Below, in pieces: positions 1,461 through 63,466 of a stretch of 64,000 bases of DNA (position 1 is its first letter; every line of letters begins with the position of its first letter). The stretch spans positions 8,731,191 through 8,795,190 of the forward strand of contig CM036628.1 of assembly GCA_020746105.1 (NCBI GenBank). Direction: 5' to 3'. The notes below the pieces were generated by a model that was given only the letters and a program-made list of their open reading frames with translations, ran no database searches and had not been told where the DNA came from. The position numbers were made by a program, and so were the translations under genes. Source of the stretch: Trogon surrucura. Taxonomy: Eukaryota; Chordata; Aves; Trogoniformes; Trogonidae.

Positions 1461-2065
1461 GTTAGTTTGATTTTACAGGTCTTTTCTTGTTGCCGTGCTG
1501 CCTCAGGATCTCGGTTTCAAACACACATAAAAAAAACCAAACCTTGCAATATATTGTACCCCTGTATTAGATGAGGAGGGGTAAAAAATTCTTTTCAGGG
1601 CGAGGAAGTGAAGTATCAATAGCATTTTCATTAACCTCACTTGGCTGGTAATGCACAGATTTTGTTGTCTGGCCCATAAATAATGTGGATGTTTTTGGGT
1701 TTTCTCGTAAGAATTTAAGGAATATTTTCACAATTAAGAATAAATCACTTTCTGAGTGCCCATATTCTTGTTTTTCAGATTTACCTTATTTGCTGCTGGA
1801 TCAGATAAGCAGTTGTTTCTGTGTTCCTCACCATGTAAGAATAGAGGATATGTTCCGAATTGCCACATGCCTTCTGTAGAAGGTGAAGGGACAAATAACA
1901 AGAAAAAGCAAATCTGTAGGGTGCTGTAGCTTATAAGCTTATGAATAATACGTCAGATTTGTTTTCTCAAAAGAAGGAAGATAAACAGTAAATGTGGGAG
2001 CGCTGTCAAGCAGTTAAAACCATAAGTCTGCATTTTTACTAACTTGATGCATTTTCTCTTTGTAG
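1461..2065 (+). other. ZBTB33: ZBTB33 5' intron
   Basis: AT-rich sequence between the CpG island and the coding exon. It ends in a pyrimidine-rich tract and the acceptor TTTGTAG at 2059-2065. No further exon or repeat was recognised. Confidence 0.6.
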
Positions 2066-2067
2066 GA

Positions 2068-4110
2068 ATGGAGGGGAAAAAACTGATTTCTGCAACAGAC
2101 ACACAGTATTCTAATGTGCTTCTTCAGTCTCTGAATGAACAACGTGGCCACGGACTTTTTTGTGACGTTACTGTCATCGTGGAGGACCGGAAATTTCGAG
2201 CTCACAGGAACGTCCTTTCAGCCTCAAGCACATATTTTCACCAGCTTTTCTCAGTGGCTGGGCAAGTGGTTGAACTGAGCTTTGTAAGAGCAGAAATTTT
2301 TGCAGAAATTCTTAACTATATTTATAGCTCCAAAATAATCAGTGTTCGGTCCGATTTACTTGATGAACTGATTAAATCAGGGCAACAGCTGGGCGTTAAA
2401 TTTATAGCTGATCTGGGTGTGCCTCCGTCGGAAGGAAAAAAGATGCCGAGCGAGGTCAAAGATGGTGCTTCAGAAGCTTCCACTTCTTGTCCAGTTCAAA
2501 AGGATGCTGAAACACAAGTACCTGTAATAAGGTCAGAAAGTCAAGAGGTAACGGATGGAATGCCTGTTATAACACAGTCATTCTCCTTACACGGCATAGA
2601 ATATGAGACCACAAAAATTACAGTGAGTGATTCAGACGATGAGGATGATGATGTAATTTTCTGCTCTGAGATTATTCCTCCAAAAGAATGTATTAAAGAT
2701 CCAAATGCTACGGCCCAGAACCAGCCTTCCCCAGGTCCAGCTGGCGTTTCTGACCAAAAATCGTGTGGCTCTGGGGGCTCTCCCCACTTGACGAGCACTG
2801 CAGGAGCTCAAAAGTTCACTTCATCCACCAGTCAGCTAAGCCCAAACCAAACACAATCAAGTGCCGAATCACTTGGCTCCGCAACGCCACAGCATTTGAC
2901 TCCCAGTATCATTGTCCTAAATAAGCCTCTGCTTAACTCATCGCTCGGTGCCAGTTCCTCGCATCCAACACACGTGACCCCTACAATTAATTTGCTTGAG
3001 GAGAAGCAGGAGCCATCTAATAAGGGCTCCTTAACTGAAGTGGAAACGACTGCTGTTGATGATGAAGTGGTTGTTGAAGATGATGTCGATATCATTAGCT
3101 CCTCTAGTCCTGGCTCAGTCAGCAGTAGCTCTTTGGTTCAGCAACCTTCTGTACCCAAGGCAGCAACCACTGAAGGGTCAGGTGTACAGAAAAAACAGGT
3201 TGTTAAATTTGCAGAAGCGCCATTTTCTAAACCTGGAGATTTTAAAATAAAGATCTCAGATGTCCTTACTGGAAACAACAAGGAATTCAGTTCAGGTATA
3301 GCATCAAAGCATGTGGCAGAGGGGCAGAAAATCATAACATTAGATACAGCAACTGAAATCGAAGGCTTATCCACGGGCTGTAAGGTTTATGCAAATATCG
3401 GTGAGGATACGTACGACATAGTCATTCCCGTAAAGGGTGATTCCGAGGAAGGCGAAGCCAAGGTTGATGAAGCGCCCAGAACATCTGGCGGCGATTCTCC
3501 GAACAGGAAACGCATGAAAGTAAAGCACGACGACCATTACGAGCTCTTAGTGGATGGGAGAGTCTACTACATCTGCATCGTGTGTAAGAGATCGTATGCG
3601 TGTCTGACGAGTTTACGGAGACATTTTAACGTGCACTCCTGGGAGAAGAAGTATCCGTGCCGATACTGTGACAAAGTTTTCCCCCTTGCAGAATACCGCA
3701 CAAAGCATGAAATTCACCACACCGGCGAGCGAAGGTACCAGTGCTTGACGTGTGGCAAAACTTTCATCAACTACCAAATTACAGCCTCCCACATAAGATC
3801 AGTTCATAGCCAAGACCCTTCTGGAGACACCAAGCTTTATCGATTGCACCCTTGCAGGTCTCTGCAGATCAGACAGTACGCGTACATTACTGATCACACA
3901 AGCAGTATACCCGTAATAAACGAGGGGGGAATTGTTTATCGTGTTGGCACAGGGAAGGATGGTGCTGAAGGAACAGCAGCATCGAACCCTCCAGCCAAAC
4001 AAATTACCTGGGATGACATTTTTGTTCCACAGGGAAATGAAGCAATTTTTAAACAGAATCCATCAGAGGGAAGTACTGAATTTGAGTTTGTAATACCGGA
4101 ATCTTACTGA
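2068..4110 (+). CDS. ZBTB33: Transcriptional regulator Kaiso (ZBTB33)
   Basis: Single-exon coding sequence of 680 aa (about 672 in human, from memory). ATG 2068 is chosen because the exon starts at 2066 just after an acceptor and the residues from there (MEGKKLISATD) match the Kaiso N-terminus; upstream in-frame codons lie in the intron. Residues about 10-118 are a BTB/POZ domain for dimerisation and co-repressor contact. An acidic run of Asp/Glu lies near 186-196. A basic, NLS-like stretch RKRMKVK starts at 480. Three C2H2 zinc fingers follow: C503/C506/H519/H523, C531/C534/H547/H551 and C559/C562/H575/H580, with the TGERRY linker between fingers 2 and 3 and the conserved C-terminal extension. 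The protein ends FEFVIPESY. Kaiso is a nuclear protein that binds methylated CpG pairs and the TCCTGCNA site, partners p120-catenin and recruits NCoR (family knowledge). The frame is intact with no key residue missing. Confidence 0.98.
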   Translation: MEGKKLISATDTQYSNVLLQSLNEQRGHGLFCDVTVIVEDRKFRAHRNVLSASSTYFHQLFSVAGQVVELSFVRAEIFAEILNYIYSSKIISVRSDLLDELIKSGQQLGVKFIADLGVPPSEGKKMPSEVKDGASEASTSCPVQKDAETQVPVIRSESQEVTDGMPVITQSFSLHGIEYETTKITVSDSDDEDDDVIFCSEIIPPKECIKDPNATAQNQPSPGPAGVSDQKSCGSGGSPHLTSTAGAQKFTSSTSQLSPNQTQSSAESLGSATPQHLTPSIIVLNKPLLNSSLGASSSHPTHVTPTINLLEEKQEPSNKGSLTEVETTAVDDEVVVEDDVDIISSSSPGSVSSSSLVQQPSVPKAATTEGSGVQKKQVVKFAEAPFSKPGDFKIKISDVLTGNNKEFSSGIASKHVAEGQKIITLDTATEIEGLSTGCKVYANIGEDTYDIVIPVKGDSEEGEAKVDEAPRTSGGDSPNRKRMKVKHDDHYELLVDGRVYYICIVCKRSYACLTSLRRHFNVHSWEKKYPCRYCDKVFPLAEYRTKHEIHHTGERRYQCLTCGKTFINYQITASHIRSVHSQDPSGDTKLYRLHPCRSLQIRQYAYITDHTSSIPVINEGGIVYRVGTGKDGAEGTAASNPPAKQITWDDIFVPQGNEAIFKQNPSEGSTEFEFVIPESY

Positions 4111-53602: not shown

Positions 53603-53745
53603 TTATACAGACTGATAGCCAGTACGACTTTTTCTTCTTCCAATGACATAAGATATAAAGACAAGAATGATAAGGAAGCCAAGTGCCATGCCCACCGCGA
53701 TGGGAATAAGAAAGTTCAGGTCAGAATCAGCAAAGCATTCTTCAG
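53603..53745 (-). CDS. LAMP2: LAMP2 alternative last exon 9, isoform C
   Basis: Acceptor TTTCTGCAG, phase 1, 47 codons with TAA at 53603-53605. Encodes (A)[18 protein letters not shown], the membrane helix [16 protein letters not shown] and the tail [12 protein letters not shown]. It matches LAMP2C at nearly every position. The Arg/Lys-rich tail linked to nucleic-acid binding is intact. Confidence 0.96.
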
Positions 53746-56700
53746 CTGCAGAAAGAAGAAAAACAAAAAAAAAAAGCAAGGAAGAACAAATTAGTAAAAG
53801 GAAATCAAGCATTAGAGACTAAAGAAAGCAAGTAGCAAACAGACATCTTTGAGAATTTACACTGTATCAGATACAGTAATACATCTAAAGTAAAAATAGT
53901 ATCGAGCTAAGAATTGATAGATTGATTTCTTTAAACACATACACTGCACACATGATTTGAATTGGTAATATACTTCTGTACATTTAATGTCATCTTCCTC
54001 TATTAAGCAGTACCTGGAGTTAGAAATGTGAGGACAAACCAGCAGTCTGAGCATGCGTACGTTGATGAACCTGAGTTAACAGCAATACAGCAACAAAAAA
54101 AAGACAAACTGGTATATCACTGTCCTGTCTCAGTGACTTCCAAAACCCTCAAGCCACCAGCACTTCTCTAGGTTCCAGAGAGAAATAATGGACAGCAAAG
54201 CAAGGAACAAGGTAGAAACTACAGGACAGCCAAGATATATATGCTGAAAGCACTGAAAGGAAAACACAGAAAGACTCTCTTTTTTGGGTAAGCAACTTTA
54301 TTTTCAATCCAAATACAAATCCCAGTTTCAGCCGAGAACTATGTGGACCTTACCAAACCAACACAAAAAAAAAAAGCATGAGAGACAGCTGTTATGCTAC
54401 AGTGGTTTTTAATATACAGGTTATAAAATATGTGATGAACTCCTTGCTGATACAAACACCCACGCAAGAATTAGCGAACAACACCGGGAGCTGATGCCAA
54501 ACTCAGCGATACACCTTGGACACGGAGGCAGGGCTTGGCATTCTTCCCATCTTGTAAAGAGAGCAGAGCTCTATCCGTGCAGCGCCAAGAAGAGATGTTT
54601 TGCAAGACATGATATACAGCGTCTGTGCGCTGCTTCAACACAGTCAGGGTGCTTGACTTGCAGAGCAGAGCTCCTCACAGAATTTTTTTGCTTGAGTTCA
54701 TATTAGAGCAGAGTAAGCATCACACACACATTCAGTGCTTTAGCAAAAATTAGCCGGTGTTTTAAGTGAGGATTTAAACCATTTGAGCCTCTAACTGAAT
54801 CAGTTCTGGGAAATTCACTGTCTCCATTTAGCTCACTAGAATCCAGTACACACCTACCACCACCCCTTTACAAAAGGCTCTACATTAGCCTTTGGCTAAG
54901 AAGAAAAAAAACAACCAACAACACGTGGAGGTTCATCATCTAAAAATACTCAACTCGGACAACTTGAAGACACCTATTGCCAAGCAGAGCAACACTTGAA
55001 AGGGGAAAGAGGAAAGAAAATGTGTTCCTTGTGTTATGAGCTACTTAAAATATTATGAGTATTGAGAAAGTATTTAAGGATGCTAAAAAGAGAATTGTAT
55101 TTGATATTTAGTCATCTTTGCTCACCGAAGATCAACATATACAACTGAACTGCCACATTCTGGATAATGGGTCATTAATACTAAACATGAATAAATTTGC
55201 TAAGGATGAAAAGTGCCCAGCTGGCAACGACAGAAATTCCCTTTCTCTCTTCTTTAAAGGAAAGAGATTGCAGCAATACACATCACACTATGGCAGTGTT
55301 ACAAGGAATTCCCAGATGAAAAGGATTTAAAGTTTCATGCCAGGAACATTCCAGCCTTTACCTCGCTCCAGTTTGCCACTGCTGGTGGCACACACCTACC
55401 CAAGTGCTGCTGCCCTACAATGGTTAGAAGCCTCAGAGAAGCGTCTTCGAACGCAGAACCCGGTAATTGCACACCCCAACAAAGAGACTCCACATTCAGG
55501 CCGGGAGGAACAGCTTTCTTGACGTATTTGGTTGAACGTGTGTCTTCATTGAAAATCATCATAAATTTTGTCCCTAACAGTTTTAGCCCCAGTATAAATG
55601 CTGTCTTTCATTTTACTTCCAATTAGGAGATGCAACAGATAGCCTAGAATGTTGTGGTTTTATTGGAATATACTATACAACAGGAACATTGTGGTTAAAA
55701 AAGAAAAAAAGTTCATTGGCTGGAAGAGCTTCTTTTGAGTACTAGCATGGCATCTCTAAGCTAAAAGATCAGAAATCTTGGTATTTTAGAGCACAATTTT
55801 AATATTTAGCAAACTCTATAAGGCACAGTCCATACTAATCAAAACAAATCACAGTTTATGATAGATTACATCCCTTAATATTTAACATACACAAGTACAC
55901 ACAAGTTAAATGCCATTTCCACAAACCAGAACAAAACTATTTTATTCACCTGCTGCCACTGCATGCCTTCAATATTCTGAAATTAAAAGTGTAGTATTTT
56001 GGAAGAATTTAAATTAATTCTTTAATTGATTAAAAAAACATTAGAAAAAACTTCTTCACTGTGCAGGCAGAGCCCTGGCACAGGCTGCCCAGGGAGGTTG
56101 TGGAGTCTCCTTCTCCGGAGACATTCAAAACCCGCCTGGACGCGTTCCTGTGGGGCTGCCCTAGGGGATCCTGCTCTGGCAGGGGGGTTGGACTAGATGA
56201 ACTCTAGAGGTCCCTTTCAACCCTTAACATTCTGTGATTACGAACTAGAATGTATTCCAAGTTGTTAAGGTTTAAACATAAACCACAATATATTCTGCAT
56301 AACTCCTTAACCAGGTTTGTTTTTAAAAAGCCATTTGCCTGACTTGGCAAGCAAGCTGTCTTCTGAGTTTTTTTTTTTTCTTAAATGAACTGTCCCATTT
56401 TAAAATTACTCATATCCAGCACTAAACTGTTTCTTGTAACAGAAGTAAGCTAGTAAGCACTAGACAACTAACCTCCCCAAAGGTGCTCCTACTGCTATGG
56501 GTACAATGCAGTTGCCCATTTCCGGGCTGCAGCCTCCAGCTAAACAGAAACAGGGTAAGTTTGAAAAATAAATGCATTTAAGAGAAGTATTTAACACTGT
56601 AATCTCCCTCTAGTTATTTATAACAGGGCATCAGTCATCCATCCACAAAATCCTGACTACCTCCCCCTCCCCAAAATACAACAGTTCCCCTTCCCAAACA

Positions 56701-59700: not shown

Positions 59701-62700
59701 ATGCAGTATTTGACATCTTCAAAACAGCTATGAAACCCACGTCGTCATCTTAGAGCAGGAAAACAATAAACGTAGTTCTGCTTCATTTGAGATAAACATT
59801 CTCTGCTTCTCAACTCCAATTAGCTGTGGCTAGCCATTACTCCTAAGTTTGGGGTCTTTTTTGGACTTCAGAACTTGCACTTGCTTTGTTTAGAGTGAAA
59901 TCAGAACAGGAATCGCATTTAGATTCACAAAGTTTGATATCCAGCATAGCTTTTTCTTCTGCCAATTATGTAAGCAATCACTATAATGGCAATCAAGCCA
60001 GCAAGTGCAGCACCAACTACAATTGGAATTAGAATGCTGTCATCATCCAGCGAACACTCCTGGGCTGTAGATGAGAAAAAGGTTGCAACAAGGAATAAAT
60101 AAAGACAGAATACTTGCCAAGTGTGGTACAAAAAAAATAATAAACTGTTTAATATGAAGGTGTTAAAAATCAAGTGTTATATCTTTAAACTAAGAAACTG
60201 AGAACTGCAGAGGTCTCATGGGTATACCTAGCACATATTAAGCATTATAATCACTTGGAACACTTGATAAACTAGAGAAAGCTAATGTTGTACAAGTTTT
60301 CACGTGCACAAGAGCTGTACTAGACATGGGAGGAGCCATTCTTCTACTTTTAAGAGAGAACCAGGCTTATCTATTTCATGCTTAAGGCAAGTCTGGTGCT
60401 TTTACTCACTAAGAATAAAGTGACCTAGATGTGGTATCAAGAACCTATCCAGAACGGAGGTGTGTTACAGAGAGATGAAGGAACTATACTAGAAGGAAGC
60501 TCGCTGCAACTTGAACTAGAGTGAAATGTGACCCTAACTCTATAGAACTTATGATAAATGCTGCTAACCCTGCACACATTTGGGGAGTTAACTTATCTCT
60601 GCCTAAAAAAGGAGTTCTCAAATCTGTACCTAATCTGTCTACAGATTAGTCTAGTCCAATAGAACTGTGCTGCAAGTATTAAGTGCAAAGATTAGGTTAC
60701 ACTGAAGATCAAGAGGTCATTTAAGTCATTCTAGTTTTCCCCAGATAAGACCAGGATAATGCAGCAAACAAACACTCTAGAATTTTCCTTTAGTTCTAGA
60801 TATCGAAGACCGCTTCTGAAAGAAGCTCTGTTGGTTCTTTTTTTTTCTCCCAACACTCCTATTCCTTAGACAGACAGGCAAAAAGACACAAAACACCTAA
60901 CGGTGTTACCAGAGTCCACGTCTGCTTAAGTTTTGTCCCATTTTCTTGTCTATTCAAGCTACAAAAAGCTGTATGTAAAGATGATGTCAAGTAATTTGTA
61001 ACTTATTCTGCAAGGCAGTGCTTAAATCCCTCCTTCAGTGTCTCCAGCTCCTCCAAATTTTATGAAGAGAACTAACATAACTAGTACACCTTTTTTTTAA
61101 GTGAGAACAAAGTTTTCCCTGAACTTGAGTATCAGTCTCAGAAGATTCTCTTCATTCCACGTGTAAAAAACAAAAGACAAACACAATGGAACACAAGCTT
61201 CAAGGGTAAAGTGCTTATGCCCAGCACTGATGCTGTTTAGCAAGTAGGAACTCTGCAAGCATTACAAGAATTAACAAAAAAAGAAGTCTTACCTGTAGAG
61301 AACTTATTTGCCTTCACAAGGAATGGCTGAATCCATAGATTAAAAGTATGTATCTGAAATTCTTCATTAATCTCAAGAGTTTGTTCTTTTCGGCACATGT
61401 AAGAACTGCCAAGGAAAGCATCCCACTCGCTGAAATTGTTGTTACCTGCATTTGAAATGACTACACAAAGGGGAAAAGGAAATTTGCATGTCAGCTTGAA
61501 ATGCAAGAGAGCTGTTAACACTATCGTAAGACTAAGGAGCTCAGTCTAGAGGGGTCAACTTAAACATCAGCTACTCTGGAAAATACGGTAGTTTGAAGCA
61601 CAATTCATCTGCTTAACTAAAAAAAAGTCAGGCATTGAAGTTATCACAGCACTTAGCAGTAACCTATCCTCCATATAGATGTGCCATGAGGCTTTCCTTG
61701 TAGCTTGGCACATCCCAACACTGCAGTCACGAGCATTTTAGCTTTAGTGCCCTTTTAACTGGAGTAGCCCTGACAAGCAACCTTACAAAAAAAAGTTTTG
61801 GAAAAAAGTATGGCTTAGTTTTTGGAGGACTGGTCTCTTTTCCCAATGAGAGTTAAGCAGAAGTCATCAGAAGACAAAGCAGCATCTTCAATCAAAGACA
61901 ACTGCTGGTTCAGGGGAAAAAAAAAAAACAAAAAAAAAAAAACAAAAAAAAAACACTTCAGAGTTGATACAAGTGTATTTCACAGCTCAAAAAATTACAT
62001 TACTGAAAACAGCTATCAAGAAGCTCTCAATTTATATATATTTATCAGACACCCCATTAACAGAAGCTTCAGTAAAAGAGAAGGATTGCACACTGCCATT
62101 TAAAGTAACTCTTGTAGACATTTCTGCTTATTACTTTTGCTCCTACCAACTTAAAGACTTAAGGTAGGAAGTAGCAGTAAGCATGAACAGCACTGAAAAA
62201 AAAAAAAGTCGGAAGTGTTCGATTAACATCGAATAAAAGCTTACACTTGGCTTTAAGGTAGATACTATTTCTTACCAGAACCATTCAGATGGTTGAGCAG
62301 CGTAACATTCACCTCTTTCAGATAAAATTTTTGTCCACCTTCACTTGTATTTTTCTGTTTAAGAAGGAAGAACCAACTATTAGTGTGCAATTCCACATTT
62401 TTAACTTTAAGAACACAGGCTTTACAAAGGCTTACGCATTTACTACAGTCTTACACTTTCTACAGCTTTAACCCAATTGAGGCAGTGGGCTAGCCAGTTC
62501 CACTTCCTATATGGGAACAGTCTACCACCATCAAATGACAGACGGATTTTGCTGTGAGTGATCATCATGCAAAGATGTTAAAGTGGAAGATTAGTTTAAA
62601 ATAAAAGAAGGTACTTACAACAACAAATGTGAAACCGATCAATGTGCTATTTCCATCATTCAATTTCAGAGTAGCTGTCCTATTACCACAGGTACCATCT

Positions 62701-63466
62701 GCAGTAGTTGTCTTTGGATTGATGTTGATCAGAAGAGGCTGAAACACAGACATACCGCATCAAAGCCATTCAGCTGCCATTAGGAATCCATTGTTTCAGT
62801 CAGTAGCAGTCTTAGGCTAGAAGAGCTCATCATGAAGAAGACTGAGCCTGGCTTCTATCGAACCAAGGCCACCTGATTTACATGCTGGTAATACTGAAGC
62901 AAACATATTGCCCAGTGAAGTCTTTTGTTGACCTAATACAACAGGTTAGCTCTGGCTCCCTCTGTGGGAAACGACAGTATCTGCAGGGACTGACTGCCTT
63001 AAACACTAAGAAAATGCCAGGCTTTTAATGATGTCAGAGGTACTTCAGTAACAAGCTACATCGAATCCACGCAAGGTTTTGAGGCTAGGTATGCCACAAA
63101 ACAATTCTGATGTCAGAGAAGTGCTATACACAATACTTGGAAGCGGTTCTGGAGAGCCAGCAGTGTACAAAGCAAACACCCTGCCCTCCCATGTCATACC
63201 AACTAACTACAAGCAGCCTTTCTATTCTTCTATATAGAAAAGAAGCACCTTGTCTTGGGAAACATTCAGCTGCAGCCCCACAATAGCCAGAAGACAAGCT
63301 GTATTTCCATTTTTAAGAGAATAGTTTCCCGTTTCTGGATTCTCCACAGGTTTGGGAGCAGTAGTTGGAGCAGGCGATAAAGTGGTGATCGATGCAGTAG
63401 TTACATTGGCAATAGTAGGCGTAACAGTAGGTGCAGAAGTAGGTGTATCAGCACGACATCTAAACT
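53603..63466 (-). CDS. LAMP2: Lysosome-associated membrane protein 2 (LAMP2), exons 5-9, 5' part outside window
   Basis: Minus-strand coding exons: 63466-63249, 62738-62619, 62354-62276 and 61460-61293, then alternative last exons 60064-59925 (2B) and 53745-53603 (2C), with a dead 2A exon at 56539-56400. The part present covers the Thr/Pro-rich hinge, the membrane-proximal luminal domain with its cysteines (NTACLL, DGTCGNR, YMCRKE, EC) and the alternative membrane-plus-tail units. Each tail ends in a GYxxΦ lysosomal sorting signal (GYQTL in B, GYQSV in C). LAMP2 is a heavily glycosylated protein of late endosome/lysosome membranes needed for autophagosome-lysosome fusion. 2A serves chaperone-mediated autophagy and 2C has been linked to nucleic-acid uptake by lysosomes (published knowledge). 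Exons 1-4 must lie beyond 64000. The exon numbering follows the human gene. Confidence 0.95.
54297..54302 (-). terminator. LAMP2: Candidate poly(A) signal, perhaps of the former LAMP2A transcript
   Basis: AATAAA on the minus strand, lying downstream of the 2A relic and upstream of the 2C exon. Inferred from position only. Confidence 0.25.
56046..56239 (+). mobile_element. CR1 LINE 3' fragment
   Basis: Contains the CR1 3' end blocks CACAGGCTGCCCAGGGAGGT, TCTCCTTCTCCGGAGACATT, GGACGCGTTCCTGTGGGGCT and GGTTGGACTAGATGAACTCT, ending ATTCTGTGATT. Only the last ~195 bp are present. It belongs to a different CR1 subtype from the 39 kb copy, as judged by the tail octamer. It lies 160 bp beyond the old LAMP2A stop codon, in opposite orientation to LAMP2. 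Confidence 0.95.
56400..56539 (-). pseudogene. LAMP2: Decayed LAMP2 isoform-A last exon (9A relic)
   Basis: Read on the minus strand after the acceptor TTTCTGTTTAG (exon start 56539) in the phase shared by the 2B and 2C exons, it gives (A)[25 protein letters not shown], a TAG stop at 56462-56460, [17 protein letters not shown], a TAA at 56408-56406, F, then TAA at 56402-56400. This aligns without gaps to the LAMP2A membrane-and-tail unit recalled from human. VPIAVGA, LLAYF and AGYE-F are kept. The Lys-His-His-His motif needed for chaperone-mediated autophagy is now K-Q-F-S, and the Gln codon of the final GYEQF became TAA. Two separate nonsense changes plus non-conservative changes argue for real decay rather than a read error. 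No other copy of the 2A exon was seen between 53.7 and 61.3 kb. Confidence 0.88.
56540..59924 (-). other. LAMP2: LAMP2B 3' UTR and flanking sequence
   Basis: Minus-strand poly(A) hexamer at 57783-57788, about 2.1 kb past the 2B stop, is the best candidate end. AT-rich; no exon or transposon was recognised. Confidence 0.5.
59925..60064 (-). CDS. LAMP2: LAMP2 alternative last exon 9, isoform B
   Basis: Acceptor TCATCTACAG, phase 1, 46 codons with TGA at 59925-59927. Encodes (A)[17 protein letters not shown], the helix [16 protein letters not shown] and the tail [12 protein letters not shown]. It is a clear LAMP2B tail, the form abundant in heart and muscle in other species. Confidence 0.97.
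60065..61292 (-). other. LAMP2: LAMP2 intron 8
   Basis: No exon or recognised repeat. Confidence 0.6.
61293..61460 (-). CDS. LAMP2: LAMP2 exon 8
   Basis: Acceptor CCCCTTTGTGTAG, donor ACAG|GTAAGA, 2 + 165 + 1 nt. Encodes (V)[39 protein letters not shown] and [16 protein letters not shown]. The last base G is shared with whichever alternative exon 9 follows. An alternative acceptor 15 nt inside (AATGCAG|GTAAC) is possible but would break the phase with exon 7. Confidence 0.95.
61461..62275 (-). other. LAMP2: LAMP2 intron 7
   Basis: Contains an A-rich tract with single C interruptions at 61916-61953. No exon seen. Confidence 0.65.
61916..61953. repeat. Poly(A)/C simple tract
   Basis: Three runs of about 10-12 A separated by single C. 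Confidence 0.9.
62276..62354 (-). CDS. LAMP2: LAMP2 exon 7
   Basis: Acceptor TCTTAAACAG, donor TCTG|GTAAGA, 26 codons plus 1 nt: [20 protein letters not shown] then NHLNGS. FYLKEVN is the family-conserved core; NTS, NVT and NGS are sequons. Confidence 0.95.
62355..62618 (-). other. LAMP2: LAMP2 intron 6
   Basis: Short intron with nothing else recognised. Confidence 0.7.
62619..62738 (-). CDS. LAMP2: LAMP2 exon 6
   Basis: Acceptor GTGTTTCAG, donor GTTGTT|GTAAGT, 40 codons: [40 protein letters not shown]. Contains a conserved luminal cysteine. Confidence 0.93.
62739..63248 (-). other. LAMP2: LAMP2 intron 5
   Basis: No exon or recognised repeat. Confidence 0.65.
63249..63466 (-). CDS. LAMP2: LAMP2 exon 5 (hinge and start of second luminal domain)
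   Basis: Acceptor TTTCTTTTCAG, phase 1, 72 codons. Encodes (E)[18 protein letters not shown], the Thr/Pro/Ala hinge expected to be O-glycosylated, then [20 protein letters not shown] and LQLNVSQDK. The donor AAG|GTGCTT is weak (T at +5), but no better site keeps the frame. Confidence 0.9.

Follow-up and report, generated by a model that had tools for sequence, protein, structure and literature searches.

In the 64-kb stretch of Trogon surrucura DNA analyzed here (the window, whose positions serve as coordinates throughout), the terminal exon for isoform 2A of LAMP2 is dead in the assembly. This is well supported by two in-frame stop codons in an exon that lies between the intact terminal exons for 2B and 2C. 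We consider it very probable that LAMP2 exon 9A, one of the alternative terminal exons, has become a unitary pseudogene, and as coding sequence the relic most likely has no role.

LAMP2 is located on the minus strand, with its 5′ exons beyond the window. Four shared exons were recognized by their splice sites and open frames at 63249..63464 (hinge and start of the second luminal domain), 62619..62738, 62276..62354, and 61293..61460, all on the minus strand, and they join into one open frame. The two bases before 63464 complete the previous codon, and the donor of the last shared exon joins the alternative ends. Along the minus strand, the alternative last exons are arranged in the order 2B, 2A-like, and 2C. 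The 2B exon (59927..60064, minus strand, end GYQTL) and the 2C exon (53603..53745, minus strand, end GYQSV) were intact, as the earlier note had described them; both were open and in phase, and with their own profiles they scored 111.4 bits (2B) and 120.4 bits (2C). Both forms contain Pfam PF01299 (luminal) and PF21222 (membrane segment) above the cut-off. This succession of a luminal LAMP domain and the LAMP2 membrane segment is that of a LAMP2 gene, whose 3′ part lies within the window. The named protein with the best identity was LAMP2 of Trogon melanurus (P0029; 99% over 45% of the query), which showed one difference from the window LAMP2 by direct sequence comparison. P0029 stops short of the tail and therefore carries no information on 2A.

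The 2A relic is located at 56400..56539 on the minus strand, preceded by the acceptor ctgtttag and in the same phase as 2B and 2C, with its reading frame running from 56537 to 56400. By codon count, a TAG stop at 56460..56462 lies within the membrane helix, a TAA stop at 56406..56408 replaces the Gln of the GYEQF end of the targeting tail, and the final TAA is at 56400..56402, all on the minus strand. The relic has K-Q-F-S at the site of K-H-H-H in the solved human 2A tail (PDB 2mof), and 20 of the 39 aligned residues are identical when counted by eye. Thus, the positions of both stops, the K-Q-F-S, and a match of about half of the residues to the human tail, all of which the earlier note had claimed, were confirmed.

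The relic shares with exon 9A its place between 2B and 2C, its phase, the VPIAVGA start of the helix, LLAYF, and the AGYE-F end. It retains 11 of the 14 strongly conserved 2A columns, and with X at the stops it scored 30.2 bits for the LAMP2 membrane segment, against a Pfam cut-off of 27. According to section 4.2 of PMC9221867, LAMP2A depends on a basic tail to bind HSC70 and substrate, on helix glycines to form oligomers, and on a GYXX-phi end for targeting, and section 4.2.2 requires the cytosolic tail to have three or four basic residues. In the relic, the frame through helix and tail is interrupted by the in-frame TAG and TAA. Its tail has two basic residues only, both Lys (KKQFS for KHHH) and both behind the TAG, and its targeting end reads AGYE-stop-F, again behind the earlier stop. 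In place of GAALAG it has GAPLGR, in which the first glycine is kept and the second glycine position is Arg, with a Gly one residue before that Arg.

We compared the three terminal exons with their bat counterparts. The relic matched at 22/46 residues, compared with 40/46 for 2B and 42/47 for 2C (Fisher p 6.5e-7). However, working 2A tails also diverge, as the bat tail matched that of koala at 32/46, caecilian at 21/45, and fish at 25–28 of 43–45 residues; low identity alone is therefore no proof of decay. Because working tails vary, 11 of the 14 columns are kept, and no frameshift is supported, the stops carry the case more than identity does. Frameshift-aware alignment at penalties of −8 and −12 detected no frameshift against six of the seven comparison proteins (the alignment with the seventh, P0080, could not be used), in line with the earlier description of the match as gap-free. 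The three fish tails with a usable alignment need a one-residue gap against the relic because they are longer. At the lenient penalties of −4 and −6, frameshifts appeared for some or all comparison proteins. An origin of the TAG from compensating one-base indels was not supported: the gain of the frameshift over the plain alignment was 6 (koala, penalty −4), and 228 of 300 randomly mutated controls reached it.

Alternatively, the 2A exon might otherwise be working, with stops that were introduced in sequencing or assembly or that belong to a rare allele carried by this individual. The unbroken frame and the remaining conserved columns would fit such an origin, but the rest of the exon has also diverged far, both in the tail tree described below and from bat 2A, and the adjoining 2B and 2C exons are clean. 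We regard this explanation as improbable.

We consider it equally improbable that the exon is still spliced and yields a truncated LAMP2 containing half of the membrane helix, which would be secreted, shed, or retained in the ER, and either functional or degraded. The acceptor and phase are kept, the acceptor has the same pyrimidine content as that of 2B (16/22 in each), and polyA-like signals, such as AATAAA at 55946, 55664, and 54302, are found in the interval from the relic to exon 2C. However, sequences as short as an acceptor and a polyA-like hexamer may survive by chance, and the likeness to 2A continues past the first stop, where a truncated form has no need of it. Just 3′ of the relic, the minus strand at approximately 56240–56040 resembles, by eye, what we take to be an avian CR1 repeat.

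The identity of the dead exon was evaluated with tail profiles built from 47 distinct 2A, 27 2B, and 25 2C tails; of 207 proteins, the 35 whose tails could not be classified were left out. The relic scored 47.3 bits with the 2A profile, 25.1 with 2B, and 23.5 with 2C. The top shuffled relic scored 7.6 bits with the 2A profile (1754 reported of 2000 made), and the match to 2A is not due to chance. In a tree of 33 tails, for which the tool warned of few columns and long branches, a branch supported at 96/93 placed the relic with the 2A tails. Its neighbors there were koala and caecilian 2A, with local support of just 82/53. The branch length of the relic was 1.7, and those of 2B and 2C of the same bird were 0 and 0.023. 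The relic shared 22–23 of 46 residues with three mammal 2A tails, compared with 15/46 with its own 2B and 14/46 with its own 2C. Its place between 2B and 2C, its phase, and its best match to 2A are those of an exon 9A orthologue, and the order B, A, C is that given in the figure 5 legend of PMC9221867. By position and sequence, the interval is assigned to 2A. The reading in the earlier note, a 2A exon broken twice, is thus upheld by profile score, tree, position, and stops. Derivation of the interval from 2B or 2C by copying and decay has a negligible chance of being right: the three alternative exons are related and the relic does score with both other profiles, but its 2A score is higher by 22 bits, it shares fewer residues with its own 2B and 2C than with mammal 2A, the tree puts it with 2A, and it is located between B and C.

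In six-frame profile scans of the 64-kb window, the relic, 2B, and 2C alone rose above noise, and nothing else resembled 2A. The earlier note had stated that it would be overturned by an intact 2A exon at another place in the locus, spliced to exon 8; for the window, such an exon was rejected. The lesions of a unitary exon pseudogene are present, and the search for other copies covered the 64-kb window alone. In favor of the unitary pseudogene we counted position, acceptor, phase, the B-A-C order, the 2A score, the tree, the identity contrast, the stops, and the window scan. Against it we counted the variability of working 2A tails, the retained columns, the lack of a supported frameshift, the acceptor pyrimidines, and the pass in Pfam.

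We compared the relic with known cases of loss. STK33 is reportedly a unitary pseudogene in neognath birds. As in such bird pseudogenes, a function otherwise kept in vertebrates appears to have been lost with a remnant left in place, although there the whole gene was lost and in the trogon one alternative exon. Section 4.1 of PMC9221867 describes second LAMP2 copies without exon A in European eel and Asian bonytongue. In these copies, as in the trogon, exon A is gone while B and C stay. However, the two fishes keep another LAMP2 with all three exons, whereas the trogon window shows one locus and no second copy.

To estimate the age of the loss, we let the B and C exons decay neutrally in simulations, taking two stops without a frameshift as the outcome. 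This outcome was likeliest at approximately 0.17–0.2 changes per site, a peak that varies with the assumed indel rate. Its likelihood was approximately 16 to 37 times below the peak at 0.02 changes per site and just approximately 2 to 4 times below it at 0.05. A very recent loss is disfavored under this model. The neutral rate in birds is close to 2 per site in a thousand million years. Taken with this rate, the simulated decay suggests a loss tens of millions of years old, with wide limits.

We then considered the spread of the loss among birds. Among the best 120 of 131 LAMP2 matches, the named bird proteins with a readable tail comprised nine 2B and twelve 2C, and none of the 21 was 2A, in a count that omits many truncated bird rows, the bird or bird-like rows P0014, P0019, and P0025 (odd ends), and the unnamed P0024 (2B tail). 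As a yardstick, 18 of 51 fish rows among the same listed matches were 2A, with paddlefish P0059 (2C) left out. The bird tally is weak because the database consists of cluster representatives and many one-isoform predictions and because of truncation. It gives a weak hint that the loss may reach beyond trogons. The earlier note had placed the loss of the exon "in this bird"; this holds at the DNA level, but the wording may be too narrow given the old-looking decay and the absence of 2A among the readable bird tails.

No bird 2A protein candidate was found with the relic tail as the query. The bat 2A tail as the query gave 89 proteins at E ≤ 10, whose printed names were all of mammals, with some rows nameless; the absence of birds there says little because distant fish 2A tails were missing too. 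The 2A tail of the caecilian Rhinatrema bivittatum (P0086) was also strongly diverged (end PAYEHF, branch length 1.2), suggesting that 2A may be loosening in other tetrapods.

That the loss of the 2A exon dates back to the early history of a large bird group, such as Neoaves or Telluraves, is conceivable but less likely than not. Chicken LAMP2 is reportedly the subject of papers by Hatem (1995) and Gough (1995). A figure legend in PMC9221867 includes chicken in its list of species scored for exons B, A, and C, and the legend of S5 in PMC12404552 describes an alignment of all LAMP2 isoforms of human, mouse, rat, and chicken. Both legends treat chicken as having the isoform and speak against a loss across birds as a whole. 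Among the matches listed in the open-licence literature, we found no report of LAMP2A loss in a bird.

Elsewhere in the window, a single open frame of 694 amino acids at 2026–4110 (plus strand) contained a BTB domain that passed the Pfam cut-off and zinc-finger matches that fell short of theirs; by mammal gene order, we presume that it may be ZBTB33 (Kaiso). One of seven open frames examined gave a Pfam family, and Pfam analysis of 10 further open frames of the window gave no match. A GC-rich tandem repeat of 33 bases in approximately four copies is located at 669–800. As expected, a scan of viral contigs detected no LAMP2.

To our knowledge, LAMP2A is the sole known receptor of chaperone-mediated autophagy. 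Translation of a transcript that ends in the relic would terminate approximately 15 residues into the membrane helix, before any cytosolic tail, and so the product would have neither the HSC70-binding basic tail nor the GYXX-phi targeting end. The rest of LAMP2 probably stayed under constraint, with 2B and 2C still made and LAMP2A protein impossible. The lesions are presumably fixed in the species and the loss old. PMC9221867 describes LAMP2A as the receptor that limits chaperone-mediated autophagy and as widely kept in vertebrates. Judged from its exons, this bird has likely lost classical LAMP2A-dependent chaperone-mediated autophagy, which would be absent or replaced, for example, by endosomal microautophagy. 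Since the 2A exon has decayed beside intact sister exons, the bird may be a natural knockout. If this is true, a warm-blooded animal lacking this exon alone, with 2B and 2C retained, would offer a natural isoform knockout in which one could test which functions depend on the pathway and whether endosomal microautophagy or another receptor substitutes for it. If the early loss were also true, thousands of bird species would live without LAMP2A and classical chaperone-mediated autophagy and would use another route instead.
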